Positions 3,338 to 13,592 of a DNA stretch of 20,586 bases are shown here, piece by piece. Source of the DNA: a virus; the IMG/VR virus record IMGVR_UViG_3300042389_000650, positions 1 to 20,586 of that record. One strand, 5' to 3'. Positions within the stretch are counted from its first letter, which is position 1. Each line of letters starts with the position of its first letter. A model generated the notes under the pieces. It did no database searches. It saw only the letters and a list, made by a program, of their open reading frames with translations, and was not told where the DNA came from. The translations under genes were made by a program, and so were the position numbers.

Positions 3338-3910
3338 ATGAGAAGAGATAAAAAGATTTGGATTGGAATCCTTGCTGCACTTGGGCTTATTGCACCACTA
3401 AGTAATGCAGCTAACGCTTTAAGTACTGAAAATAATCTGAGTAAACCAGCTTTAGCTGAACCTTCAACCGCCAAGGCGGTTTTTTTGGTTTCTAAGCCTA
3501 AAAGTTTGGTAGCAGTAAAAAAGAACCTAGATGTTCTATATAAATATCAAGATGCTGTTAGCCTTACAGATCGTCAGCTAAAGGAGCTTTTGCATGCCGT
3601 TGGTTTTCGTGGTGAAGGCCTAGTCAAGGCTTGGGCTGTAGCCAAGAAGGAGTCTAATGGACGACCACTTGCTTTCAATGGCAATGTAAAGACTGGAGAC
3701 AATTCTTATGGTATCTTCCAGATCAATATGCTTGGAATGCTAAAAGAAGGTCGTCAAGATAAATTTGGGCTCAACTTTAACAGTGAGCTTTTAAACCCTG
3801 TCATTAATGCACAGGTTGCATATCATATGAGTAATGGTGGAAAGAACTGGTCTGCTTGGCATGGCATTACGCCAAAGACTAAAGTTTGGATGAAGAAGTT
3901 TCCAATCTAA
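3338..3910 (+). CDS. Secreted lytic transglycosylase/lysozyme-like protein (190 aa)
   Basis: Probable peptidoglycan-cleaving enzyme for lysis or cell-wall entry. Residues 1-28 form a Sec signal peptide: basic MRRDKK, hydrophobic IWIGILAALGLIA, and possible cleavage after SNA or ANA. Residues 85-185 resemble an SLT/goose-lysozyme-like domain, with a likely catalytic Glu105 in AVAKKESNGRP, the motif GDNSYGIFQIN (120-130), and a closing NGGKNWSAWHG. The linker at 30-80 is lysine-rich. Strong Shine-Dalgarno AGGAGG lies 8 nt before the ATG. It is the only plus-strand gene in the left arm and overlaps the converging oxygenase gene by 4 bp. A signal peptide on an endolysin implies Sec export rather than holin release. 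A terminator-like hairpin sits inside the coding sequence (3466-3486). Substrate specificity is not visible. Confidence 0.85.
   Translation: MRRDKKIWIGILAALGLIAPLSNAANALSTENNLSKPALAEPSTAKAVFLVSKPKSLVAVKKNLDVLYKYQDAVSLTDRQLKELLHAVGFRGEGLVKAWAVAKKESNGRPLAFNGNVKTGDNSYGIFQINMLGMLKEGRQDKFGLNFNSELLNPVINAQVAYHMSNGGKNWSAWHGITPKTKVWMKKFPI
3466..3486 (+). terminator. Rho-independent terminator-like hairpin inside the lysozyme-like gene
   Basis: AACCGCC-AA-GGCGGTT followed by TTTTT has the form of an intrinsic terminator, but lies within codons 43-50 of an open frame that continues for 140 more codons. It falls just after the signal-peptide coding region, so attenuation is possible. Activity is not shown by sequence alone. 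Confidence 0.55.
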
Positions 3911-4485
3911 AAAGGAAGATCTTTATTGAGCGTTGTTGGGTATTCATCGTTACCCCTCATAAATACTGTTGAAAAGTATCTTGTAGAATCACTTAAAACT
4001 GGCAAAGAGCCATGTAGGATTTCTCCTCCGTGGAGTAATGCTGAACCTGCCTTTGGCTTTATAGTGATACCAAGCTCTGGATAGTCAATTTCTCCTCCAA
4101 GATAGTCATCATTATAATAAATTACCAAACCATAACCTAAATAGTAGCCTGCTGGTGTTGTATCATTATCACGATGAGCCTTAATTTGATCATCCTTTTT
4201 AAATCTAGATATTTTTAACTCTGTTTCACAATAAAAATATGAAGAAAATATATTTTTAACCTTGTCAAAAACAATCCTATTGCATAAATCGTAATGATCA
4301 GATAAAAACAAGCTTTTACCATACCAAAAGTCTTTAGTATTTGATATGTGATTTGTGTCAAACCAGCTTGTTGATGGTTCATTCTCTATAACTTCCAAAA
4401 TACTATTTAGTTCATCTTGACTCAAAAAGTTTTCAATCTCATAAACATCTTCAGCAAGCTTATTGATTATAAAGTCATACTTCAT
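3907..4485 (-). CDS. 2-oxoglutarate/Fe(II) oxygenase, prolyl-4-hydroxylase type (8th of eight)
   Basis: Double-stranded beta-helix oxygenase using Fe(II), O2 and 2-oxoglutarate. Fe ligands read as H104xD106 (KAHRDND) and H158 (EILHGS), with R169 (STRYFS) as the likely 2-oxoglutarate carboxylate anchor. The YYNDDYLGGEIDYP strand between them is the operon's family signature. The N-terminus (VYEIENFLSQDELNSIL) is the usual helix before the core. I chose the ATG at 4485 (192 aa): it lies just after the stop of the dehydrogenase gene, whereas the upstream ATG at 4524 would overlap that gene by 38 bp. It is the last gene of the operon and converges on the lysozyme-like gene with a 4-bp overlap. 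Substrate unknown; hydroxylation of a protein side chain is an inference. Confidence 0.9.
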   Translation of the reverse strand: MKYDFIINKLAEDVYEIENFLSQDELNSILEVIENEPSTSWFDTNHISNTKDFWYGKSLFLSDHYDLCNRIVFDKVKNIFSSYFYCETELKISRFKKDDQIKAHRDNDTTPAGYYLGYGLVIYYNDDYLGGEIDYPELGITIKPKAGSALLHGGEILHGSLPVLSDSTRYFSTVFMRGNDEYPTTLNKDLPF

Positions 4486-4486
4486 T

Positions 4487-5155
4487 TTATCCAAACTTAC
4501 TGCTATGAATATGGTTAAGTTCAATGTGATTAATGTTTACGTGACTTGGCAACTCAGACACCCAGCGAATACACTCTGCCATATCTTCTGCAGTTATTGC
4601 ACTATCCCGCTTTTCTTCTTGAGTATCAATAGTTCCTGGACAAATTTCTGTTATCTTAATATTATAGGCTGGAAACTCTAGACGCATTGTATCTACAAGA
4701 GCCATTTGGCCTCTTTTGGCGTTGATGTAGTTACCACCAGAACGGTATGGTACTTTTCCACCTAAAGAGCTAATGAATATGATAGTTGGAGATTGAGATT
4801 TTTTCATTGCTGTAACAAACAGCTGAGAAAGATACATTGGTCCTGTTACATTAATGTCATACGCTGTTCTAAAATTTGCTGGAGTTTCGTTTATTATCAT
4901 TGTTGGACTTGCACCACCACCAGCATTATTTACTAAAAGATCTAAAGATATATCTTTATATTTTTCAGCAAAGTCTTCTATCTGCTTAGAGTCAGTTATA
5001 TCTAACTGGTAAATTTCAACATTATCTGAAACTAAGTCTGACATCTTAGATAAATTTCTTGATACAGCTATAACATGATACCCATTTTGAGACAACAACT
5101 TAACTGTTGCACGACCAACACCTTTGCTTGCCCCTGTTACAATAGCAGTCTTCAC
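4487..5155 (-). CDS. Short-chain dehydrogenase/reductase (222 aa)
   Basis: Classical SDR with an N-terminal Rossmann fold: TGASKGVG (residues 7-14) for NAD(P) binding, NNAG (76-79), the structural Asn in INVTG (102), a catalytic Ser (129 or 130 in FISSLGG) and Y143-xxx-K147 (YINAK). All catalytic elements are present, so it should be active as an NAD(P)-dependent alcohol/ketone oxidoreductase. Start is GTG at 5155, immediately after the preceding gene's stop (TAAGTG). It lies between two 2OG oxygenase genes, so it may oxidise or reduce a product made by them. It could instead act on a sugar or lipid; no substrate can be read from the sequence. Confidence 0.93.
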   Translation of the reverse strand: MKTAIVTGASKGVGRATVKLLSQNGYHVIAVSRNLSKMSDLVSDNVEIYQLDITDSKQIEDFAEKYKDISLDLLVNNAGGGASPTMIINETPANFRTAYDINVTGPMYLSQLFVTAMKKSQSPTIIFISSLGGKVPYRSGGNYINAKRGQMALVDTMRLEFPAYNIKITEICPGTIDTQEEKRDSAITAEDMAECIRWVSELPSHVNINHIELNHIHSSKFG

Positions 5156-5890
5156 TTACATACTTTCGTTGCGATTAAGGCTCATGTTGTTGTGAATCCA
5201 GTGTCCAGGAACCATATACTTATGTCCAGATTTTACAACATGGGCTGTATGAAAATATGGTGCCGATGCTGGAAATATTATTACACTATTTGCTTTTGGT
5301 TTAACACCAAAATCTATTGATTTATCAGCAACTGCTACATCGTAGTCTAAATCAACAGCTGGTGCGCCACGCACCCATCCATCAGAACTGGTCCACCCAC
5401 CATCATAATCTTTTAACTGAAAAGAAATCTCTCCGCCTTCACAGTCATCATTTAAATACATAACAAGCGAATATCTTAGTGTTTGATCTCCATCTAACTG
5501 ATCAAAATGTGCACCCATACCCATTCCAGAGTTGTACTTTTTAATGTTAAATGTTGGAAATAGTCTTGGCTCGTCAAAATCTCCTAAAGATGATGCATAG
5601 TCCTTGCATATATTAGTAAATGTTGTCATTACGGCATCATAAATATATTTGCTTTTTTCTCCAACCTCACCCTTTATTTGTTCAATTGCTGATAGATCAA
5701 ATGTTTTAGTTTGTCCATAAATAAAAGTTTTATCATTAGAAGATGTCCAGTTATCCCAAACATTAACATTAAAGTCATTAGAAGATTCTAGTTCATCTAG
5801 CTCCAGGAGCGTCTGCTGAAACTTATCAAAATTATCAATTGCATCAGTATAGTAATAAACTTTTGGATCTAGAATCTCTTTATTCATCAT
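5156..5890 (-). CDS. 2-oxoglutarate/Fe(II) oxygenase (7th of eight, 244 aa)
   Basis: Fe ligands H128xD130 (MGAHFDQ) and H214 (YFHTA), numbered from the first Met. A lysine (K224, SGHKYMVPGHW) sits where other members have Arg or Lys for 2-oxoglutarate. The core strand is YLNDDCEGGEISF. An insert of about 30 residues (DYDGGWTSSDGWVRGAPAVDLDYD) between the core strand and the FGVKPKANS strand is longer than in its neighbours and could shape the substrate pocket. A Shine-Dalgarno site, AAGGAG, lies 5 nt before the second ATG (5887), so the true start may be one codon later than listed. The next gene starts with no gap. Substrate unknown. Confidence 0.9.
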   Translation of the reverse strand: MMNKEILDPKVYYYTDAIDNFDKFQQTLLELDELESSNDFNVNVWDNWTSSNDKTFIYGQTKTFDLSAIEQIKGEVGEKSKYIYDAVMTTFTNICKDYASSLGDFDEPRLFPTFNIKKYNSGMGMGAHFDQLDGDQTLRYSLVMYLNDDCEGGEISFQLKDYDGGWTSSDGWVRGAPAVDLDYDVAVADKSIDFGVKPKANSVIIFPASAPYFHTAHVVKSGHKYMVPGHWIHNNMSLNRNESM

Positions 5891-5896
5891 ATCTCC

Positions 5897-6556
5897 TTAG
5901 TACTTATTTTTCTCATAAAAGTTTTTTTCTTTAACAAATCCAACCAGAACATATCTTATTGGACCGTCTCCTACTGGAACTACTCCGTGATGGAAGTCGC
6001 TAGTTCCTGGGAATATTATTAAAGATCCCTTTTTTGGCTTTATCGTAAAGTCAAATTTCTCAAAGAATAGCTCTCCGTCAACATATTCATCATTAAGATA
6101 AAGTATGGTTGCATATCTGATTGATGGATCTGTATCTTGGTCTGTATGAGCCTTCAGCTCAACACCAGTTTGCATTCTTTGCAGTGTTGCTAATCCGCTA
6201 AGCTCTAGAGTTGGATCTGAATAATGTACAATATCTGCCAATCTGCGATAAACTTTACGATAAATCTCTGTTCCACCAATAACTAAATTTTTATCTGCCC
6301 AACCCTGCGTTATTTCAAATTTTCCTTCTGCAACAAGATTATCAACATCATCTCTTCCAAACTTTTCCATACAGAATCTTTTAAGATTTTTTGTATATTC
6401 TATATGCCAATCTTCTTCTGGAGTATTGTTAATAATTTTCATGTATTCTGATAACTCTTCTTCAGATACAAAGTTTTCTATCAAAATAACATCCTTTGTT
6501 ATTTCATTAAACTCTATACCAAACTCTTCTAGCTCTTTTGAAAGATATGCGGACAT
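5897..6556 (-). CDS. 2-oxoglutarate/Fe(II) oxygenase (6th of eight, 219 aa)
   Basis: Fe ligands H137xD139 (KAHTDQD) and H190 (FHHGVVPV), with R201 (GPIRYVLVGF) for 2-oxoglutarate. The core strand is YLNDEYVDGELFF. The frame is open to an upstream ATG at 6592, but the ATG at 6556 (MSAYLSKELEEFG) is preferred. A strong AGGAGG lies 9 nt before it and covers the last codons of the preceding gene, whose stop is at 6558-6560. This member and the 192-aa one are the most compact, close to a minimal P4H-like domain. Substrate unknown. Confidence 0.9.
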   Translation of the reverse strand: MSAYLSKELEEFGIEFNEITKDVILIENFVSEEELSEYMKIINNTPEEDWHIEYTKNLKRFCMEKFGRDDVDNLVAEGKFEITQGWADKNLVIGGTEIYRKVYRRLADIVHYSDPTLELSGLATLQRMQTGVELKAHTDQDTDPSIRYATILYLNDEYVDGELFFEKFDFTIKPKKGSLIIFPGTSDFHHGVVPVGDGPIRYVLVGFVKEKNFYEKNKY

Positions 6557-6557
6557 A

Positions 6558-7307
6558 CTAGATTCCCTCCTCTGGCTTGTATTTGTTTCCATCTTTATCT
6601 AGCTTCCACCCCTGCTTAAGCAGCTCTTGCCACTCTGCTCTTTCAACCTCTTGCTTTGCTCTTGTTTCTTTCATTTCTTCTGCCCAAGCATCTCTTAGTT
6701 CTTGTGGGTATGCATCTTCTTCTCTATCATCCCAGAATGATCCTATTGTATATCTTACACCCTTAGTAATAAGTGATACCTCGTGCATATTGTTAAATCC
6801 CCCGTCAAAAACGGCAAGCATACCAGTCTTTGGTTGAATTTCTATATTCTGGGCTGGGAACCTTAAAAGACCACCCTCAAAGTCATCGTTTAAGTATAAG
6901 AAACCAGCATATCTACTTCTTGTAAATGCTCCAGAATTACCCTTCTCGTCTGTGTTATCAGAGTGTAGTCTTGCATATGCTCCTGGCTCCCACTTTTGAG
7001 TGTGGTATCCAATTTTTGAAATTATCTTAGGGTCAACATCATGGACTGATGCAATTGCCTCTGGCATCTTGTTTTCAATATCTGAAAAAATAGTTGGAGA
7101 TAGTCCAGCATCAACTACTTCTTGGTCATTGTCTTGTGGCAGTACAGAAGAGTATGACTCATAAAAAGAAATAGGCATCCATGTAATTGCTCCATTGTCT
7201 GCTTGAGCGTCTAGTGCCTGAATCATTTTTTTGCAGTCTTCATCACTGATAAAGTTTTCATAAACAACAATGTCTTTTGTAAGCCTATGCTTATTGTTTA
7301 GGTTCAT
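6558..7307 (-). CDS. 2-oxoglutarate/Fe(II) oxygenase with charged C-terminal tail (5th of eight, 249 aa)
   Basis: Fe ligands H115xD117 (ARLHSDNTD) and H175 (NNMHEV), with R185 (GVRYTIGSFW). The core strand is YLNDDFEGGLLRFP; the Glu usually found after GG is replaced by Leu. After the domain (about residue 193) comes a charged, probably helical tail (EELRDAWAEEMKETRAKQEVERAEWQELL) that the other members lack. It could be a coiled coil for partner binding. The ATG overlaps the upstream stop (ATGA), so translation is coupled. Confidence 0.9.
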   Translation of the reverse strand: MNLNNKHRLTKDIVVYENFISDEDCKKMIQALDAQADNGAITWMPISFYESYSSVLPQDNDQEVVDAGLSPTIFSDIENKMPEAIASVHDVDPKIISKIGYHTQKWEPGAYARLHSDNTDEKGNSGAFTRSRYAGFLYLNDDFEGGLLRFPAQNIEIQPKTGMLAVFDGGFNNMHEVSLITKGVRYTIGSFWDDREEDAYPQELRDAWAEEMKETRAKQEVERAEWQELLKQGWKLDKDGNKYKPEEGI

Positions 7308-8173
7308 TTTACTCTTACCGCTCCTTCTATAATATGTCTTTGTGGATTATCTCTTCTAAACTGTTCTTCTAGTTCTGGCTGCATGGCGTACCAAGCTTCT
7401 TTACCAAATTCCTTTTCTTTTGCATACCATTCATCCGTGCCTTTTTGATATTTTTGCCAATACATTCTTGATAAAAATTTATGATTGTTATAAGATGGCA
7501 TAACACCATGTAGGTATGGCTTACCGTCTTCTGTAAGGTAGTCTGGATGTCCTGATGGAAAAACTAAAAGATCGCCTGCAACTGGCTTATACTTAACAAG
7601 TTTATCACCCATAGCAAAATCAACCTCTCCTCCCTCATAGTCATCATTAAAGTAAATTGTACATGTAATTATGAACTTATATCCTGGAGCACTTCCTTGC
7701 TCTCTCATATAGTCTGAGTGATATCTCATTCCATGTTGCTCTGTTTCATTACTTATATGATATTTTCCTATTGTTCCGCCTGCCCATCTCCAGGTTGGTA
7801 CAGTGTCTCCATTTTCGTCTACAGAGGTTGCATCAAAATCTACATCAACATTATATCTTTTTATATAGTCTTCAGTAACTAAATAAAAATTTTCCATCAT
7901 TTCCATGACAAAGTTTTTCTGGTCTTCTTGAGTTTGTGTGCTTGTTTCAACATTTTTCAAACCAGCATACTTATCATCCAAAATCATTCCAGGAAATATT
8001 GGATTTAGATAGTCACCAAAAATAGACCATTTTGTCCAATTACTAAAAAGCCTGTCTTCTGACTCTACTAAAGAATCAGTTAATACCTTGTAAGACTTTG
8101 AGATATCTTTAAACATGTTCTTATAAACAAGAATATGTGGATAGATTTCTATAGCCTCAAGATTTGTACTCAT
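7304..8173 (-). CDS. 2-oxoglutarate/Fe(II) oxygenase, largest member (4th of eight, 289 aa)
   Basis: Fe ligands H152xD154 (MRYHSDYMRE) and H222 (YLHGVMP), with K232 or R236 (HKFLSRMYW) near the expected 2-oxoglutarate anchor. The core strand is YFNDDYEGGEVDF. The N-terminal extension of about 100 residues and a Trp-rich C-terminal tail (KYQKGTDEWYAKEKEFGKEAWYAMQPELEEQF) make it the longest of the set. The start lies just after the upstream stop (TAATATG) and the end overlaps the next start by 4 bp. Proteins of this general build occur in marine and freshwater phages (family knowledge). Substrate unknown. Confidence 0.9.
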   Translation of the reverse strand: MSTNLEAIEIYPHILVYKNMFKDISKSYKVLTDSLVESEDRLFSNWTKWSIFGDYLNPIFPGMILDDKYAGLKNVETSTQTQEDQKNFVMEMMENFYLVTEDYIKRYNVDVDFDATSVDENGDTVPTWRWAGGTIGKYHISNETEQHGMRYHSDYMREQGSAPGYKFIITCTIYFNDDYEGGEVDFAMGDKLVKYKPVAGDLLVFPSGHPDYLTEDGKPYLHGVMPSYNNHKFLSRMYWQKYQKGTDEWYAKEKEFGKEAWYAMQPELEEQFRRDNPQRHIIEGAVRVK

Positions 8174-8174
8174 A

Positions 8175-8849
8175 TTAAGGCTTTCTATCTCCAGTATGCT
8201 CTGTTATCTCCCAGAAAAATGGGCAGGTAAATCTAAGTCCACTTTTAATTTCTGTTACACCATGAATATAGTTCATGTCTCCAGGGAAGAAGTAGGCTGC
8301 ACCCTTTTTAGGCTTAAATTGAACACCTTGATTTGGAAAGTATAACTCTCCTCCTTCATAGTCATCATTTAAATAAAATAAACTAGATAGGTCATAGTTT
8401 GGAAAATCATTTGGAAGTCCAGCATCTGGCCCTTCATGTAATTCTTTGTCAGCATGAGGCTTTTGGAATTGTCCTGGAAGCCACTTTACAATAGTAGTTC
8501 CAGTTGGTATAACCTTTACCTTATAAAAATCTTCTACGATTGGTTGTAATCTTTGAAATAGTCCAGCGATGACTGGTGAGATGTTTGGATCATTCTTGTC
8601 TAAGCTTGGCTGTGTTGCAACTCTGTCTTTCCAATAGTCTGAGTCATATACCACAGTACCGTTTTCATTTACGTGACTTTCTGTTACATCCCAAACTGTT
8701 ATAGACTTTGCAGACTTTTCTAAAAAGTCCATTTCTTCTTGAGTCATAAAGTTTTCTAGTTCAACAATCATCTCTTTTCCACTGCCAAACCAGCCAGATG
8801 GGGTCAATGAAGGCTTTCTAACTACAACAGAAGCATTTATGTTTTCCAT
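8175..8849 (-). CDS. 2-oxoglutarate/Fe(II) oxygenase (3rd of eight, 224 aa)
   Basis: Fe ligands H132xD134 (FQKPHADKE) and H196 (NYIHGVTE), with R206 (SGLRFTCPFFW). The core strand is FYLNDDYEGGELYFPNQG, closest to the consensus of the set, and KPKKGAAYFFPG precedes the second His. The start at 8849 has no Shine-Dalgarno site but lies 6 nt after TGGTATAAT, which sits inside the last codons of the upstream gene. This gene and those after it can therefore be transcribed both from the main operon promoter and from this internal leaderless one. Confidence 0.9.
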   Translation of the reverse strand: MENINASVVVRKPSLTPSGWFGSGKEMIVELENFMTQEEMDFLEKSAKSITVWDVTESHVNENGTVVYDSDYWKDRVATQPSLDKNDPNISPVIAGLFQRLQPIVEDFYKVKVIPTGTTIVKWLPGQFQKPHADKELHEGPDAGLPNDFPNYDLSSLFYLNDDYEGGELYFPNQGVQFKPKKGAAYFFPGDMNYIHGVTEIKSGLRFTCPFFWEITEHTGDRKP

Positions 8850-8851
8850 AA

Positions 8852-9580
8852 TTAGATTATACCATTTCCCTTATTTTGTGTATTATCTGTAACTGAAAGA
8901 CGTAAAACCTTAGTCTCATGTGATCCAACGCTTTCGCCCTTTTCATTAACCGCATCTCTATACCAGTCAGTCCACTCTCCAGACTTGTTAATTACTTGAG
9001 CTGCCTCTCCGTAAGACTGATGTGCCTTTTCTCTTTTTCTTTCTGGGTCGGAATAATCAAAGATTTGAATTGATGTATTATCCATAGCACTTAAAGAAAC
9101 TGGAACTAGTGTTGCAATAGGGGTTCCTGCTTTTATAGTAATTTCTTTATTGGCAGACCGTGCTTTAATTGCTAAAGGAAAGCCAGTGTCTAGCCAAGAT
9201 GTGCTTATTAATGAAGACATAGTTTCAAAATCATCATTAAAGTAGTTTACTGGATTGATAGTAAACATACTAACATTTTGTTCAGACCTGAAGGTTAATC
9301 CTGTATTAATACTCACAGTGGACTGACCTCTTCCAGTATAAGTGAAATTGTTACCCTCTAAGATTGTAACATTATCTGAGTTTGTATCATTTATGCCGTT
9401 CCAAATAAACTTAATGTCTTCCTTGCATGAAAGATTCCACCCAATCATATTTGCTTGAGTAACAGGAAAGCATCTGTATGCATGCTTTTCTGGTGTTACA
9501 TCCATCCAATCTCTTTTAATTGACATTGGAGAAATAACAATTTTTGAATCTGGAAATCTTTCAACAGAAATATTAAGCAT
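8852..9580 (-). CDS. DUF6065-like beta-rich protein, second copy (242 aa)
   Basis: Not an oxygenase: no HxD...H set is found. Motifs: HAYRCFPVTQANMIGWNL (residues 33-50), KFIWNGIND, FTINPVNYFNDDFETM, WLDTGFPLAIKA and IKAGTPIATLVPVSL, followed by a charged tail (SDPERKREKAHQSYGEAAQ). The pattern suggests a jelly-roll or double-psi-type beta fold. It shares the order C-P ... GW/GY ... fP ... I.AGTP..Q/T..P with the 258-aa protein at 10245-11021. I relate both to the DUF6065 type seen beside 2OG oxygenases in phages, from memory. It overlaps the preceding oxygenase gene by one base (TAATG). It may be a binding partner or carrier for the oxygenases. Confidence 0.85.
   Translation of the reverse strand: MLNISVERFPDSKIVISPMSIKRDWMDVTPEKHAYRCFPVTQANMIGWNLSCKEDIKFIWNGINDTNSDNVTILEGNNFTYTGRGQSTVSINTGLTFRSEQNVSMFTINPVNYFNDDFETMSSLISTSWLDTGFPLAIKARSANKEITIKAGTPIATLVPVSLSAMDNTSIQIFDYSDPERKREKAHQSYGEAAQVINKSGEWTDWYRDAVNEKGESVGSHETKVLRLSVTDNTQNKGNGII
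8856..8864 (-). promoter_or_regulatory. Internal leaderless promoter (TGGTATAAT) in the oxygenase operon
   Basis: TATAAT at 8856-8861 ends 6 nt before the ATG at 8849. Its bases also encode the last residues (NGII) and lead into the stop of the upstream gene. Spacing and TGG match the other leaderless promoters of this window. Confidence 0.6.
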
Positions 9581-10236
9581 TACCGATTATCCTCAGTATA
9601 CATTTCTGGTGTATGGAACTTCTTGTTATAATCTAGCATTGTAACGATAGAGTACTTTGTTCCAGATGTTACTGGCATTGCACGGTGTGGATACATGTAG
9701 TTAGATGGGAATATGTACAAGTCTCCTGCATCTGGCTTAATTAATAAGTTTTGAAGTCTAAAGTATAGCTCTCCACCCTCATAATCATCATTTGGATAAG
9801 CAACCAATGATACTGTACAGTTATAAGAGAAGCCATGATCATGGTGCTCTTGGAAATGTTGTCCTGGACCATACTTAATAAAGTTAAACGCTTCCCAATA
9901 CTTTAGGTCCATGATGTTATAGTCTTTTCTATAGTCATCAACTGCTGCAGACTTAACATCATAAAGGTCTTGCCATAACTCTTGTAGCTTAATTGAGTCT
10001 GGACTAGTGTTTAACTCAATGTCTGACTTTTTATATTTAAAGTCTACACAGTCTCTGTAGTCAGGAATTAGTTGTTGATAACCAACATATGCTGGCTGCC
10101 ATGTAAACTGATCCTTTTCTCCCAAAGGCTTTACTACTGCCTCAATCCTATTAATAACATCAATATCTTTGTTGATTACACCCTTGTAACATACAATTCC
10201 GTTTCCAAGGTTTACTTTTTCTGTCCAAGTTTTCAT
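9580..10236 (-). CDS. 2-oxoglutarate/Fe(II) oxygenase (2nd of eight, 218 aa)
   Basis: Fe ligands H131xD133 (FQEHHDHGF) and H184 (MYPHRAMP), with K194 (SGTKYSIV) in place of Arg. The core strand is AYPNDDYEGGELYFR. It is clearly a sister of the first oxygenase (11021-11734). Shared stretches include RDCVDFKYK/RDCVDFRFK, YWEAFNFIKYGPG/YYEAFNFVKYEGE, GDLYIFPSNYMY/GDIAIFPSNYIY and SGTKY. Both are followed at once by a DUF6065-like gene, so the pair looks duplicated. Shine-Dalgarno AGGGGGA lies before the ATG at 10236. Substrate unknown. Confidence 0.92.
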   Translation of the reverse strand: MKTWTEKVNLGNGIVCYKGVINKDIDVINRIEAVVKPLGEKDQFTWQPAYVGYQQLIPDYRDCVDFKYKKSDIELNTSPDSIKLQELWQDLYDVKSAAVDDYRKDYNIMDLKYWEAFNFIKYGPGQHFQEHHDHGFSYNCTVSLVAYPNDDYEGGELYFRLQNLLIKPDAGDLYIFPSNYMYPHRAMPVTSGTKYSIVTMLDYNKKFHTPEMYTEDNR

Positions 10237-10244
10237 ATTTCCCC

Positions 10245-11021
10245 CTATTTATATTCTCTTCTAGACCAAACTTTATTCTTATAAACTCCACCGTCGGGCT
10301 GTCTATAAAAGTTAGCATTCTTCATCATTCTATCATATATCTCTGTTGACCCTATAAAACTAATATCATGTGACCAATCTTCTCTTTTAAATGGAAGGAT
10401 CTGAACGTATGGAGTTCCTGCTGGAATAGTTCCTTCCCAACCTTCTGCAATAAAAAATGGAAATGTTCCAAGAAGATGAACACTATCGTTGTCAACAATT
10501 CCAGTGGTATTCATGAATGGTAAGTCAAAACGATTCATAGGTGTCATAAACAATGCACTATATCCTTCTGGTAGCTCTAAGCCCCAATCTGGATACCAGG
10601 CAAAATGATCCCTATAAAAACCTTTTGGGTGCTCAAATTGTGGCATAGCAAGTCTTTTGCTACAAAAATCTTTATGGCGTGCATCATCTATTCTTACATC
10701 TATTGAACCACCAGCTGTTTTAAAAAAAGTAAGATCACATGGAGTCTTAAGAACATAGCCTGTTGAAAATGCATCCATTATTGCTGGACATGCTTTCCAT
10801 GTAGGAATTTTTCCATAGTCATCAGTTGTTCCCTCTTTAGGAAAAGGACAAACTTCTTTTGGCGCTTTGTAATATTCTCCAACTGCATTCTTAGCAAATC
10901 TATCTGCATCTTTATACCATTGAGGAATAACAGATTGTGTTGGAGATGGAACAGAAGGACTATCCTTGGTTATCCACGGTCTGTATGCTGTAAACTTTGC
11001 AATATTTTCTTTGATTGTCAT
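10245..11021 (-). CDS. DUF6065-like beta-rich protein, first copy (258 aa)
   Basis: Motifs: SVIPQWYKDADRFAK near residue 30, IPTWKACPAIMDAFSTGYVLKTPCDLTFF (72-100), FAWYPDWGLELPEGYSALFMTPMNRFDLPF, FFIAEGWEGTIPAGTPYVQILPFKREDW, and a short tail ending in RREYK. Related by motif order to the 242-aa protein at 8852-9580. No catalytic signature is visible. Similar proteins sit next to 2OG oxygenases in other phages (recollection). The ATG overlaps the stop of the upstream oxygenase by one base. Role unknown; substrate presentation or sugar/peptide binding is possible. Confidence 0.87.
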   Translation of the reverse strand: MTIKENIAKFTAYRPWITKDSPSVPSPTQSVIPQWYKDADRFAKNAVGEYYKAPKEVCPFPKEGTTDDYGKIPTWKACPAIMDAFSTGYVLKTPCDLTFFKTAGGSIDVRIDDARHKDFCSKRLAMPQFEHPKGFYRDHFAWYPDWGLELPEGYSALFMTPMNRFDLPFMNTTGIVDNDSVHLLGTFPFFIAEGWEGTIPAGTPYVQILPFKREDWSHDISFIGSTEIYDRMMKNANFYRQPDGGVYKNKVWSRREYK

Positions 11022-11734
11022 TACTTGTGACCTAGCTCATTAATATCAGTCATTATAACAACACAATATTTTGTTCCAGACCTCATTGGTAATGATGCAT
11101 GCTCATAAATATAGTTTGATGGGAATATTGCAATATCTCCTACCTTTGGAGTAAGCGTATATCCATCTAGTCTTGGGAACTGAATTTCTCCGCCTTCATA
11201 ATCATCGTTAATATAAATAACTGCAGAAACTGTTGCGTTATATGCTGGTCCATGGTCTGCATGAATGTTGAAGTGTTTTCCTTCTCCTTCATATTTTACA
11301 AAATTAAATGCTTCATAATATACAACATTGATTCCCCAATATTTTGCGTAGTCATCAATACAATACTTTAGCTTCTCATATATTTCTTGATGTAGATCAA
11401 TAAGCTCAGAGTTATGCTCATCTCTTGGTCCTAAATTTTCTTGTTTAAATCTAAAATCAACACAGTCTCTTGCTCTTTTTATAGGTGTAGAAGAATTTGT
11501 TACTTGTGCTTCTGACCATCTATATTTTTTATTACCGCTTAGGTTTGACTCAAGAATATCAATATATCTTTTAGAGTCTTCTAATGAAAAAACATTTCTG
11601 TAAACATTTAAACCAAGTCCTGGATTCTCTACTAGAATTCCATTGTCTATAGTTTTTGCAGCAACCCTATTTAATGCTGTTTCAGATCTATCTTTTGTAA
11701 ACCAAGGGTTTTCGTTTTCATCATAAAATTCCAT
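11021..11734 (-). CDS. 2-oxoglutarate/Fe(II) oxygenase, first gene of the operon (1st of eight, 237 aa)
   Basis: Fe ligands H158xD160 (FNIHADHG) and H212 (YEHASLP), with K222 (SGTKYCVVIM). The core strand is IYINDDYEGGEIQFP. An N-terminal region of about 40 residues is charged and probably flexible. It is closely related to the second oxygenase (9580-10236). The gene has an ordinary Shine-Dalgarno site (AAGGAG, 7 nt before the ATG) and a sigma70-like promoter (11755-11783), unlike the leaderless first genes elsewhere in this arm. It heads an eleven-gene transcript with overlaps or gaps of no more than about 10 bp down to 3907. Confidence 0.92.
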   Translation of the reverse strand: MEFYDENENPWFTKDRSETALNRVAAKTIDNGILVENPGLGLNVYRNVFSLEDSKRYIDILESNLSGNKKYRWSEAQVTNSSTPIKRARDCVDFRFKQENLGPRDEHNSELIDLHQEIYEKLKYCIDDYAKYWGINVVYYEAFNFVKYEGEGKHFNIHADHGPAYNATVSAVIYINDDYEGGEIQFPRLDGYTLTPKVGDIAIFPSNYIYEHASLPMRSGTKYCVVIMTDINELGHK

Positions 11735-11839: not shown

Positions 11840-11864
11840 CAAAAAAAGCCAAACTATGTTGGCT
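11840..11864 (-). terminator. Terminator of the Phe/Pro-rich protein gene
   Basis: On the minus strand AGCCAA-CATAGT-TTGGCT is followed by a run of seven T. It ends the monocistronic transcript of the 318-aa gene about 20 bp after its stop, and separates it from the oxygenase promoter 60 bp further on. Confidence 0.8.
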
Positions 11865-11884
11865 AATTTTGTATTATCTGATTC

Positions 11885-12841
11885 TTACCAGACACCAGGT
11901 AAAGTGAAGTATGGGAAGTACGGTGCAGCTGGTCCAAAACTTGGGAAGTATGGAGGGAAGAATGGGAAGAATGGGAAGTACGGGAAGAACGGAGGGAAGA
12001 ATGGGAAGAATGGGAAGTACGGGAAGAAAGGTGGGAAAAACGGGAAGAATGGGAAGAACGGGAAGAAAGGTGGGAAGAACGGGAAGAATGGGAAGAACGG
12101 GAAGAAAGGTGGGAAGAATGGTGGGAAGAATGGGAAGAATGGCGGGAAGAACGGTGGGAAAAATGGCGGGAAGAATGGAGGGAAAAATGGCGGGAAGAAT
12201 GGAAAGAATGGAAAGAATGGTGGAAAGAACGGACCAAATGTAGAAACAACAGAGTTAGATGGTTGAGAGAAATCAGATACTCCATTATTGTTAGTTGCAG
12301 TAACTCTATAAGTATATGTTCCTGCTGCTGTTTCTGTAATTGTAATTGGTGAAGATGAACCATTTTGTGTTTTAGTAGAAGAAGATGTTACAGTATATCC
12401 TGTTATAGGTGAGTTTCCACTGTTTGGAGCTGTAAATGTAACTGATACAACACCAGAAGTTCCACCAGATGCTGTTCCAATTGTTGGAGCGTTTGGCTTA
12501 GATGTTGGAACAACTGCAGAAGATGCAGCAGAAGCATCAGATGTTCCTATTGCATTTCTTGCAGTAACAGTAAAAGTATAATTTGCTGGAGTTCCATCTG
12601 TTGATAATCCTGTTATAACGATTGGTGAAGATGATCCAGTTGCTGTTTGTCCGCCAGATGAAGTTACAGTATAATCTAAAATAGGGGACTTACCAGTAAA
12701 TGATGGAGCTGTAAAAGATACAGAAACCTGTCCATTGTCATATGTGCGTCCAGTGCCCTGATCTGTACCTGTGCCAATAGTTGGTGCATTCGGCTTTGAC
12801 TTCTTTGATGAATCGGTGGTACCAGTATTTTGTGAGCTCAT
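11885..12841 (-). CDS. Two fibronectin-III-like domains fused to a Phe/Pro repeat tract (318 aa)
   Basis: Probable surface or virion decoration protein. Residues 16-112 and 115-201 are two Fn3-like domains, each starting SKPNAPTIGT and containing SPI(L/T)xYTVTSS and YTFTVTARN/YTYRVTATN strands. From residue 202 to the end runs an extreme low-complexity tract of FFP and FFPP units with a few Tyr. It closes with SFGPAAPYFPYFTLPGVW. The ATG at 12841 has no Shine-Dalgarno site and lies 7 nt after TGGTACAAT. The gene has its own terminator. It directly precedes the oxygenase operon, so its many prolines are a candidate substrate; this is inference. The antisense frame (GKNGKNG...) also stays open but lacks support. 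Confidence 0.85.
   Translation of the reverse strand: MSSQNTGTTDSSKKSKPNAPTIGTGTDQGTGRTYDNGQVSVSFTAPSFTGKSPILDYTVTSSGGQTATGSSSPIVITGLSTDGTPANYTFTVTARNAIGTSDASAASSAVVPTSKPNAPTIGTASGGTSGVVSVTFTAPNSGNSPITGYTVTSSSTKTQNGSSSPITITETAAGTYTYRVTATNNNGVSDFSQPSNSVVSTFGPFFPPFFPFFPFFPPFFPPFFPPFFPPFFPPFFPFFPPFFPPFFPFFPFFPFFPPFFPFFPFFPFFPPFFPYFPFFPFFPPFFPYFPFFPFFPPYFPSFGPAAPYFPYFTLPGVW
11888..12238 (-). repeat. Imperfect 9/12-bp repeats encoding FFP/FFPP
   Basis: The plus strand is a run of gggaagaat, gggaagaac and related units, almost all purine, with about one pyrimidine per unit. Units of 9 and 12 bp alternate irregularly, so slippage or recombination could change length in whole codons. Confidence 0.9.
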
Positions 12842-12881: not shown

Positions 12882-13592
12882 TTATCTAACAAATATATAC
12901 ATAGATTTTACGACCATTGAAGCATCGTTATCTGTTAAGATTTGAGGGAATGCCCCGTAATTTCTCATTATATCACTTTCTATAGCAAAAGTATGCTCTA
13001 GTGATAGGTCATAGGAAAACTGATATTTAAGGTTTGCGCCAAAGCTGGTTGGGCCAGAGTCTGATTCTGGAATGTAGGTTCTAAACCAAACCTCTGTATT
13101 ATTACTAAATGTTGTCAAAATAATATCATAACGAACCGTTATTATTGAACCAACCTTTAAAGATTTTAGGTTTATTTTTTGAGATTCTGCATTATATAAA
13201 GAAACGTTATTTTCTGGAAGGTATAACTCATTATTTTTACCCTTGCAATCAAAGTTAAATCTAACCCAACCATCATTTCCTTTAGTGGCACCCAACGTGA
13301 TATCTTTTTGATTTTTATTTGTGTATAGTGCCCAACCAGTTCTTTGTCCTGATGGTGACAGACTGCTTTCTCCTGGTTTTCCGTCCTTACCATCTTTTCC
13401 AGGCCTTCCAGCATCTCCTTGAGGTCCCTGCTTACCTTCTGGTCCAGTCTCTCCTTTATCGCCCTTTGGTCCTTGTTCTCCTTGCGGACCTGGAACTGCT
13501 ATAAAAGATACTTGTTGCTCAAGCTGATAAGAGTTATTTATGTTGTCAGAATATTTTTTAGACTTACCTGGAAAATCCATGCTTGTTGCCAT
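12882..13592 (-). CDS. Collagen-like phage tail/appendage protein (236 aa)
   Basis: Residues 1-34 form an N-terminal anchor region. Residues 35-74 are 13 uninterrupted Gly-X-Y triplets (GPQGEQGPKGDKGETGPEG...), which should form a collagen-type triple helix and trimerise the protein. Residues 80-236 form a beta-rich globular tip. Collagen-like segments are common in phage fibres. In the Y position the tract holds Pro64 and Pro73 and Lys43 and Lys46, the positions hydroxylated in animal collagens. Eight hydroxylase-type genes lie on the same strand less than 2 kb downstream, which makes modification plausible but unproven. The ATG at 13592 follows the 28-aa gene's stop by 9 nt with no strong Shine-Dalgarno site. 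Confidence 0.88.
   Translation of the reverse strand: MATSMDFPGKSKKYSDNINNSYQLEQQVSFIAVPGPQGEQGPKGDKGETGPEGKQGPQGDAGRPGKDGKDGKPGESSLSPSGQRTGWALYTNKNQKDITLGATKGNDGWVRFNFDCKGKNNELYLPENNVSLYNAESQKINLKSLKVGSIITVRYDIILTTFSNNTEVWFRTYIPESDSGPTSFGANLKYQFSYDLSLEHTFAIESDIMRNYGAFPQILTDNDASMVVKSMYIFVR

Follow-up and report, generated by a model that had tools for sequence, protein, structure and literature searches.

2-Oxoglutarate/Fe(II) (2OG/Fe(II)) oxygenases are known from cyanophages, with up to five in one phage according to a table in PMC3037559, and Mimivirus encodes a repetitive protein (collagens) together with modifying enzymes, as set out in PMC9546862. The DNA analysed here, called the window below, is the whole of IMG/VR virus record IMGVR_UViG_3300042389_000650, a linear fragment of 20,586 bases, whose minus strand carries at 3907-11734 an operon of eight 2OG/Fe(II) oxygenase genes (A to H), one short-chain dehydrogenase/reductase (SDR) gene (S) and two DUF6065-type genes (U and V). 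The original prediction, made from the letters alone, had called exactly this set, and the open reading frames (ORFs) are present where it placed them; its statement that one or two such enzymes per phage is familiar was too low, given the five of a single cyanophage. Upstream of A, outside the coordinates of that prediction, lies a minus-strand gene (11885-12841) for a protein with Phe-Phe-Pro (FFP) repeats, which on sequence grounds is the best candidate substrate. We propose, with chances that we put at about even, that the operon encodes a phage post-translational oxidation pathway for this FFP-repeat protein, of which the substrate and the chemistry are the parts that we infer. The component families are known, and the arrangement was not found described in the open-access papers searched; that literature contained no account of such a locus, nothing on DUF6065, nothing on a PFFPPFF repeat and nothing joining phage oxygenase, collagen-like protein and prolyl hydroxylase.

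The FFP-repeat protein consists of fn3-type domains (about 12236-12841; fn3 E 3.9e-12) and a Phe/Pro tail of 116 residues (about 11888-12235), in which 56 residues are F, 45 are P and 29 [FY]FP units occur. Relatives were collected by scanning IMG/VR with U and V (the best 80 of 510 and the best 80 of 555 stretches, the U/V sample), and 88 distinct tails from this sample consist of 53.5% F and 42.1% P, with a spacing dominated by PFFP (1460 times; the runner-up, PYFP, 71 times). Across 168 tails, Phe is encoded by either of its codons and Pro by each of its four, a mixed usage that fits selection on the protein rather than on a DNA repeat. A plus-strand ORF at 11856-12266, made up of GKNGK-type repeats, mirrors the tail in antisense and was discarded as a gene; the same mirror frames recur in relatives L159 and L269, a possible source of annotation errors.

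The FFP gene and the oxygenase cluster are found together from whichever side the search begins. With an FFP gene defined by at least three [FY]FP units, one lies no more than 4 kb upstream of 54 of the 54 distinct clusters in the U/V sample that have at least 2.5 kb upstream, so that a putative substrate gene beside modifying enzymes, as in a locus for ribosomally synthesized and post-translationally modified peptides, is found as a gene order in every case. Where at least 5 kb upstream is available, an FFP gene lies within 5 kb in 34 of 34 clusters. A further count, 76 of 76, takes in loci that had been selected for FFP. In the reverse direction, a search with the repeat pattern alone, run beside a collagen-motif control (at least 120 stretches in each scan), gave 99 FFP loci of at least 5 kb, of which 81 carry a 2OG gene, 69 three or more and 76 U or V. 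Only 4 of 99 collagen-motif phage loci have a 2OG gene and one has three or more, and this lone locus, L367, itself has FFP. These loci are not equivalent to phages, as some share a contig (L164 and L171). Moreover, a same-strand 2OG gene lies no more than 2 kb downstream of 81 of the 93 FFP genes with 2 kb of downstream sequence, and for eight of the 12 exceptions the record has 2OG genes at another place. On the L159 record, an FFP gene belonging to the cluster itself lies some 5.5 kb upstream of it.

Within the window, the minus-strand order from 11734 to 3907 is A-U-B-V-C-D-E-F-G-S-H; the end of the FFP gene is 150 bases from A, and the eleven operon genes are tightly packed, with intergenic gaps of -38 to +8 bases. 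The oxygenase genes are A (11021-11734; PF13640 E 2.7e-11), B (9580-10236; E 5e-14), C (8175-8849; E 3.9e-9; the most conserved of the set), D (7304-8173; E 6.1e-9), E (6558-7307; E 8.6e-9), F (5897-6592; E 4.5e-12), G (5156-5890; E 1.1e-9) and H (3907-4524; E 1.6e-5), D and H being optional in relatives. A to G pass the curated PF13640 cut-off of 27 bits and H falls slightly below it (26.2 bits), while all eight match phrog_61 (2OG-Fe(II) oxygenase), and a beta-helix core is predicted for A-H from these sequence profiles. With the listed starts, the proteins are 205-289 aa long; the lower bound of 192 aa given by the original prediction holds approximately for H, and only from an internal Met. 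As that prediction had it, the HxD motif, the distal His, the Arg/Lys at the 2OG position and the Y-x-N-D-[DE] strand are kept in 8 of 8 (H158, D160, H212 and K222 in A). Among 542 distinct aligned sequences from the window and relatives, 539 have the iron triad and Arg/Lys intact, the three exceptions being two distant paralogues and one truncated frame.

The strong divergence noted earlier among the eight is borne out: the closest pair, A and B, share 41.9% identity, and every other long alignment is lower. In a tree of 222 sequences, each oxygenase letter forms one clade (support 0.906-0.999), save one A-labelled outlier; this tree and the active-site alignment cover proteins shorter than 420 aa, longer fusions having been left out. 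The ratio of non-synonymous to synonymous differences (pN/pS) is 0.04-0.44 in 22 comparisons (the 11 operon genes against two relatives), with 0.04 and 0.08 for C. Judged from these sequences, the paralogues are old, distinct and maintained. One could instead suppose, following a proposal for the 2OG oxygenases of cyanophages, that the enzymes serve host metabolism by consuming 2-oxoglutarate or making a small molecule, and PMC3037559 does suggest that phage 2OG enzymes influence 2OG levels. Consumption of 2OG, however, would not require eight distinct, separately conserved enzymes, and no metabolite is tied to the oxygenases whereas the adjacency of FFP is near constant; we regard this explanation as very improbable.

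As to what the enzymes might act on, profile searches of the PDB covered two of the eight oxygenases, A and C. The nearest match of A is a bacterial prolyl 4-hydroxylase (P4H; E 4.2e-4), followed by LH3 (about 1e-3), and that of C is prolyl 3-hydroxylase 1 (E 3.4e-5), with bacterial P4H weaker. Judged by these profiles, the closest enzymes of solved structure all modify side chains of proteins, yet the matches leave the substrate unfixed. Collagen-modifying hydroxylases are thus among the nearest solved structures, and the window does contain a collagen-like protein (12882-13592; PF01391), so the oxygenases might modify other virion parts nearby, whether this protein, other fibre residues or glycans. 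Such a role seems unlikely: collagen is found no more than 5 kb upstream in 17 of the 34 clusters with 5 kb of upstream sequence, so that in half of them no Gly-X-Y protein accompanies the enzymes within that distance as in a collagen-type system, while FFP is there in all, and the control described above found 2OG genes on very few collagen-motif loci. Collagen as substrate is weakened by both counts.

Several observations weigh against an FFP-directed pathway. The main caveat is that FFP phages share tail-gene neighbours, so the linkage may partly reflect descent, and the control and FFP loci differ in habitat and lineage; therefore, part of the contrast between them may be descent as well. 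In 23 of the 34 clusters, and so not in all, no more than 300 bases separate the end of the FFP gene from the nearest edge of the first 2OG gene, and four loci (L186, L197, L221 and L269) have FFP without a 2OG gene on the record, three on contigs below 9 kb and L197 on one of 38.4 kb. The PDB profile matches of A and C are weak, and two designed proteins match C at similar E-values. In addition, the correlation between oxygenase number and repeat number, with a rho of 0.74 in 26 clusters, drops to 0.44 in 38 clusters (p 0.006) and to 0.34 under the strictest thinning by V identity (p 0.19), and was set aside as not robust.

If descent were the whole explanation, the array would be neutral cargo, carried along at a variable locus in one phage group. 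In favour of this reading, one record has radical SAM, pyridoxal phosphate (PLP) enzyme and IMPDH-like genes between FFP and the cluster, L186, L221 and L269 have the FFP gene followed by a lysozyme-like gene without a cluster, and in the marine viruses AG-345-O18 and AG-345-L05 a C-like oxygenase sits close to genes resembling those of tail fibres, with no FFP in the stretches read. A mere passenger nevertheless strikes us as rather improbable, given that FFP genes distant from the cluster are still on cluster-carrying records, that gene order is kept across divergent polymerases and that all genes are under strong purifying selection.

The search for the same gene order in other phage records, proposed with the original prediction, had a positive outcome: the order FFP-A-U-B-V-C-(D)-E-F-G-S-(H) recurs among the IMG/VR relatives, with D, S and H frequently missing, and an alternative order, 2OG-2OG-V-U, is also seen. 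Clusters contain 5-11 2OG/Fe(II) enzymes within 9.5 kb (38 clusters), and all 12 long records picked from the loci have PF13640 matches, 6 to 13 each. DNA polymerase III alpha was found in 11 of 18 records with identity as low as 53%, and the records are therefore diverse. Overall, the earlier interpretation is partly supported: intact active sites, purifying selection, separate old paralogues and conserved gene order speak for a dedicated oxidation pathway of several active enzymes, but it had missed the adjacent FFP-repeat gene and the dUTPase-like look of the beta-rich pair, U and V.

The claim that two DUF6065-like proteins are encoded holds for V (8852-9580) directly, by its match to PF19541 (E 4.7e-31; 108.5 bits, cut-off 26.6), and for U (10245-11021; phrog_7084 E 3.4e-33) by its profile alignment with V (hhalign probability 95, E 3.1e-8), U having no Pfam match at E 0.1 and so none to PF19541. 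Structure models of the two (pLDDT 74.6 for V and 86.8 for U) found dUTPase or dCTP deaminase structures as all matches listed, with modest best Foldseek E-values (2.0e-3 for V, 1.7e-3 for U) and VIA Z scores of 8.8-9.7 for V (best match Z 9.7, rmsd 3.6, 121 aligned) and 8.0-9.2 for U (best match Z 9.2, rmsd 3.9, 130 aligned). These models predict a dUTPase-like fold for both. Neither U nor V matches the dUTPase profile PF00692 at E 0.1, and we therefore limit the claim to "dUTPase-fold". A GIVDxD stretch is invariant in U and presumably resembles a dUTPase motif; a canonical dUTPase is additionally present in one of the 12 long records. In a phages collection, U matched 49 records of haloarchaeal viruses, and V was without a match there; V homologues occur in 32 plasmid records. 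The U homologue of Halorubrum phage HF2 (L007:8857-9741), annotated as hypothetical, has a ribonucleotide reductase gene nearby and virion genes at a distance of about 2 kb. Among cells, two of the 395 genomes searched in one phylum contain DUF6065, and the genome to which L400 belongs (see below) is one of these two; in a Sinorhizobium medicae plasmid (L404:4412-7693) the DUF6065 gene is separated by 10 bases from a preceding autotransporter gene that encodes a 20-proline run.

The predicted fold raises the question of nucleotide or DNA modification, in which dUTPase-fold proteins and oxygenases would make or protect an unusual base. The HF2 homologue of U adjoining a ribonucleotide reductase gene would suit such a role, and so would a weak resemblance of C and H to Tet_JBP that stays below the cut-off. 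Yet the locus sits among tail genes, the dUTPase profile is unmatched by U and V, and the nearest solved oxygenases work on proteins, so we consider base modification quite improbable.

An oxidation pathway for the FFP-repeat protein appears to us the best explanation, because FFP and the cluster co-occur in both directions and in diverse records, because A and C are nearest to enzymes of protein side chains, and because record G001 has a second FFP-bearing protein (L391:18680-19999, 16 units) distant from its cluster. In such a pathway, several distinct prolyl-hydroxylase-like 2OG/Fe(II) enzymes would hydroxylate the Phe-Phe-Pro(-Pro) tail at Pro and perhaps at Phe or Tyr of the repeat, drawing 2-oxoglutarate, O2 and iron from the host; they could act at different residues or in succession, and the sequence fits either. 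The likely role of U and V is to bind the chain or a product, or to present it. The SDR, correctly called in the original prediction (4487-5155; PF00106 E 1.1e-40, 139.7 bits, cut-off 26.6) and optional in relatives, may alter the oxidation state of a hydroxyl where it is present. The FFP protein would belong to the tail or fibre region, where its unmodified tail would be very hydrophobic and oxidation might render it soluble or adhesive. More tentatively, and in our view with a probability clearly below even, the locus may represent an undescribed virion maturation in which up to eleven oxygenases with dUTPase-fold partners oxidise a repetitive Phe-Pro chain heavily and at specific sites, so that it forms a polymer-like adhesive or coat on the tail fibres.

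Some relatives carry further genes at the FFP locus. Two FFP proteins (L140:6423-7745 and L145:3068-4390) have a weak C-terminal Hint_2 match, below cut-off, to which L390:2-583 is similar by eye, and these C-termini are possibly self-cleaving tails. Genes for radical SAM-SPASM proteins, a type known from peptide-modifying enzymes, separate the FFP gene from the oxygenases in some records (L049:6515-7516 and L390:1745-2812). Both kinds of extra are what a peptide-finishing locus might carry. A protein of L116 that looked sulfotransferase-like by eye was assigned no family by Pfam and was not used. Cellular origin of the repeat was also considered and dropped: the pattern PFFPPFFPFFP gave six stretches in the genome collection, where four loci have no ORF of at least three units, L396 has one without 2OG genes, and L400 has FFP together with the cluster. 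L400 (JAFMJX010000128.1) is a 5.3-kb contig in a Chitinophagaceae metagenome-assembled genome; it carries genes for FFP, 2OG, V and U, and in all likelihood is phage DNA that was wrongly binned.

In the window, the operon is surrounded by collagen-like, tail-fibre-like and connector-like genes, and by a plus-strand lysozyme-like (SLT_3) gene at 3338-3910; many relatives likewise have an SLT_3 gene next to their cluster or to tail genes. In the phages collection, A found low-identity matches in 62 records, of which 60 are Synechococcus phages. For C there were matches in two marine viruses from single cells, whose C-like oxygenases (L406:5345-6037 and L407:11926-12615) lie among long fibre-like genes, with no FFP units and no U or V in the stretches read around them. 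The FFP protein was unmatched in that collection, where low-complexity masking meant that mainly its fn3 part was tested. WhiB, which serves as an actinophage marker in PMC6802176, is present in 9 of 20 partial records and points to actinobacterial hosts for some relatives; the window is too short to tell. The main text of PMC6802176 does not mention oxygenase, collagen or fibronectin.

The FFP-repeat protein offers a concrete, testable candidate substrate for a dense phage gene group known only as oxygenases, and the modelled fold links DUF6065 to dUTPases. The oxygenase block beside the FFP protein suggests, short of proof, a dedicated chemical finishing line for this protein in viruses of lake bacteria, and possibly a new way for freshwater phages, some of them probably actinophages, to build or coat virions. 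The repeat substrate and the enzymes, which are small, would lend themselves to reconstitution in E. coli.

Among known systems, the locus resembles the collagen hydroxylases: P4H, prolyl 3-hydroxylase and lysyl hydroxylase share its fold family and active-site residues, provide the best PDB profile matches, and likewise have a repetitive, proline-rich partner, although the partner here is (FFP)n and not Gly-X-Y. Unlike those hydroxylases, the enzymes here are many and diverged within one phage operon and have dUTPase-fold partners. Mimivirus differs as a eukaryotic giant virus with Gly-X-Y repeats. The cyanophage oxygenases have phrog_61 in common with A-H, but are listed as separate metabolic genes in PMC3037559, and the best cyanophage matches of A are below 40% identity. 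Among dUTPases and dCTP deaminases, the predicted fold of U and V has its likeness, without the PF00692 match. Finally, haloarchaeal viruses and alphaproteobacterial plasmids have DUF6065 proteins homologous to U and V, while the five DUF6065 neighbourhoods scanned contain no 2OG gene and no common partner.

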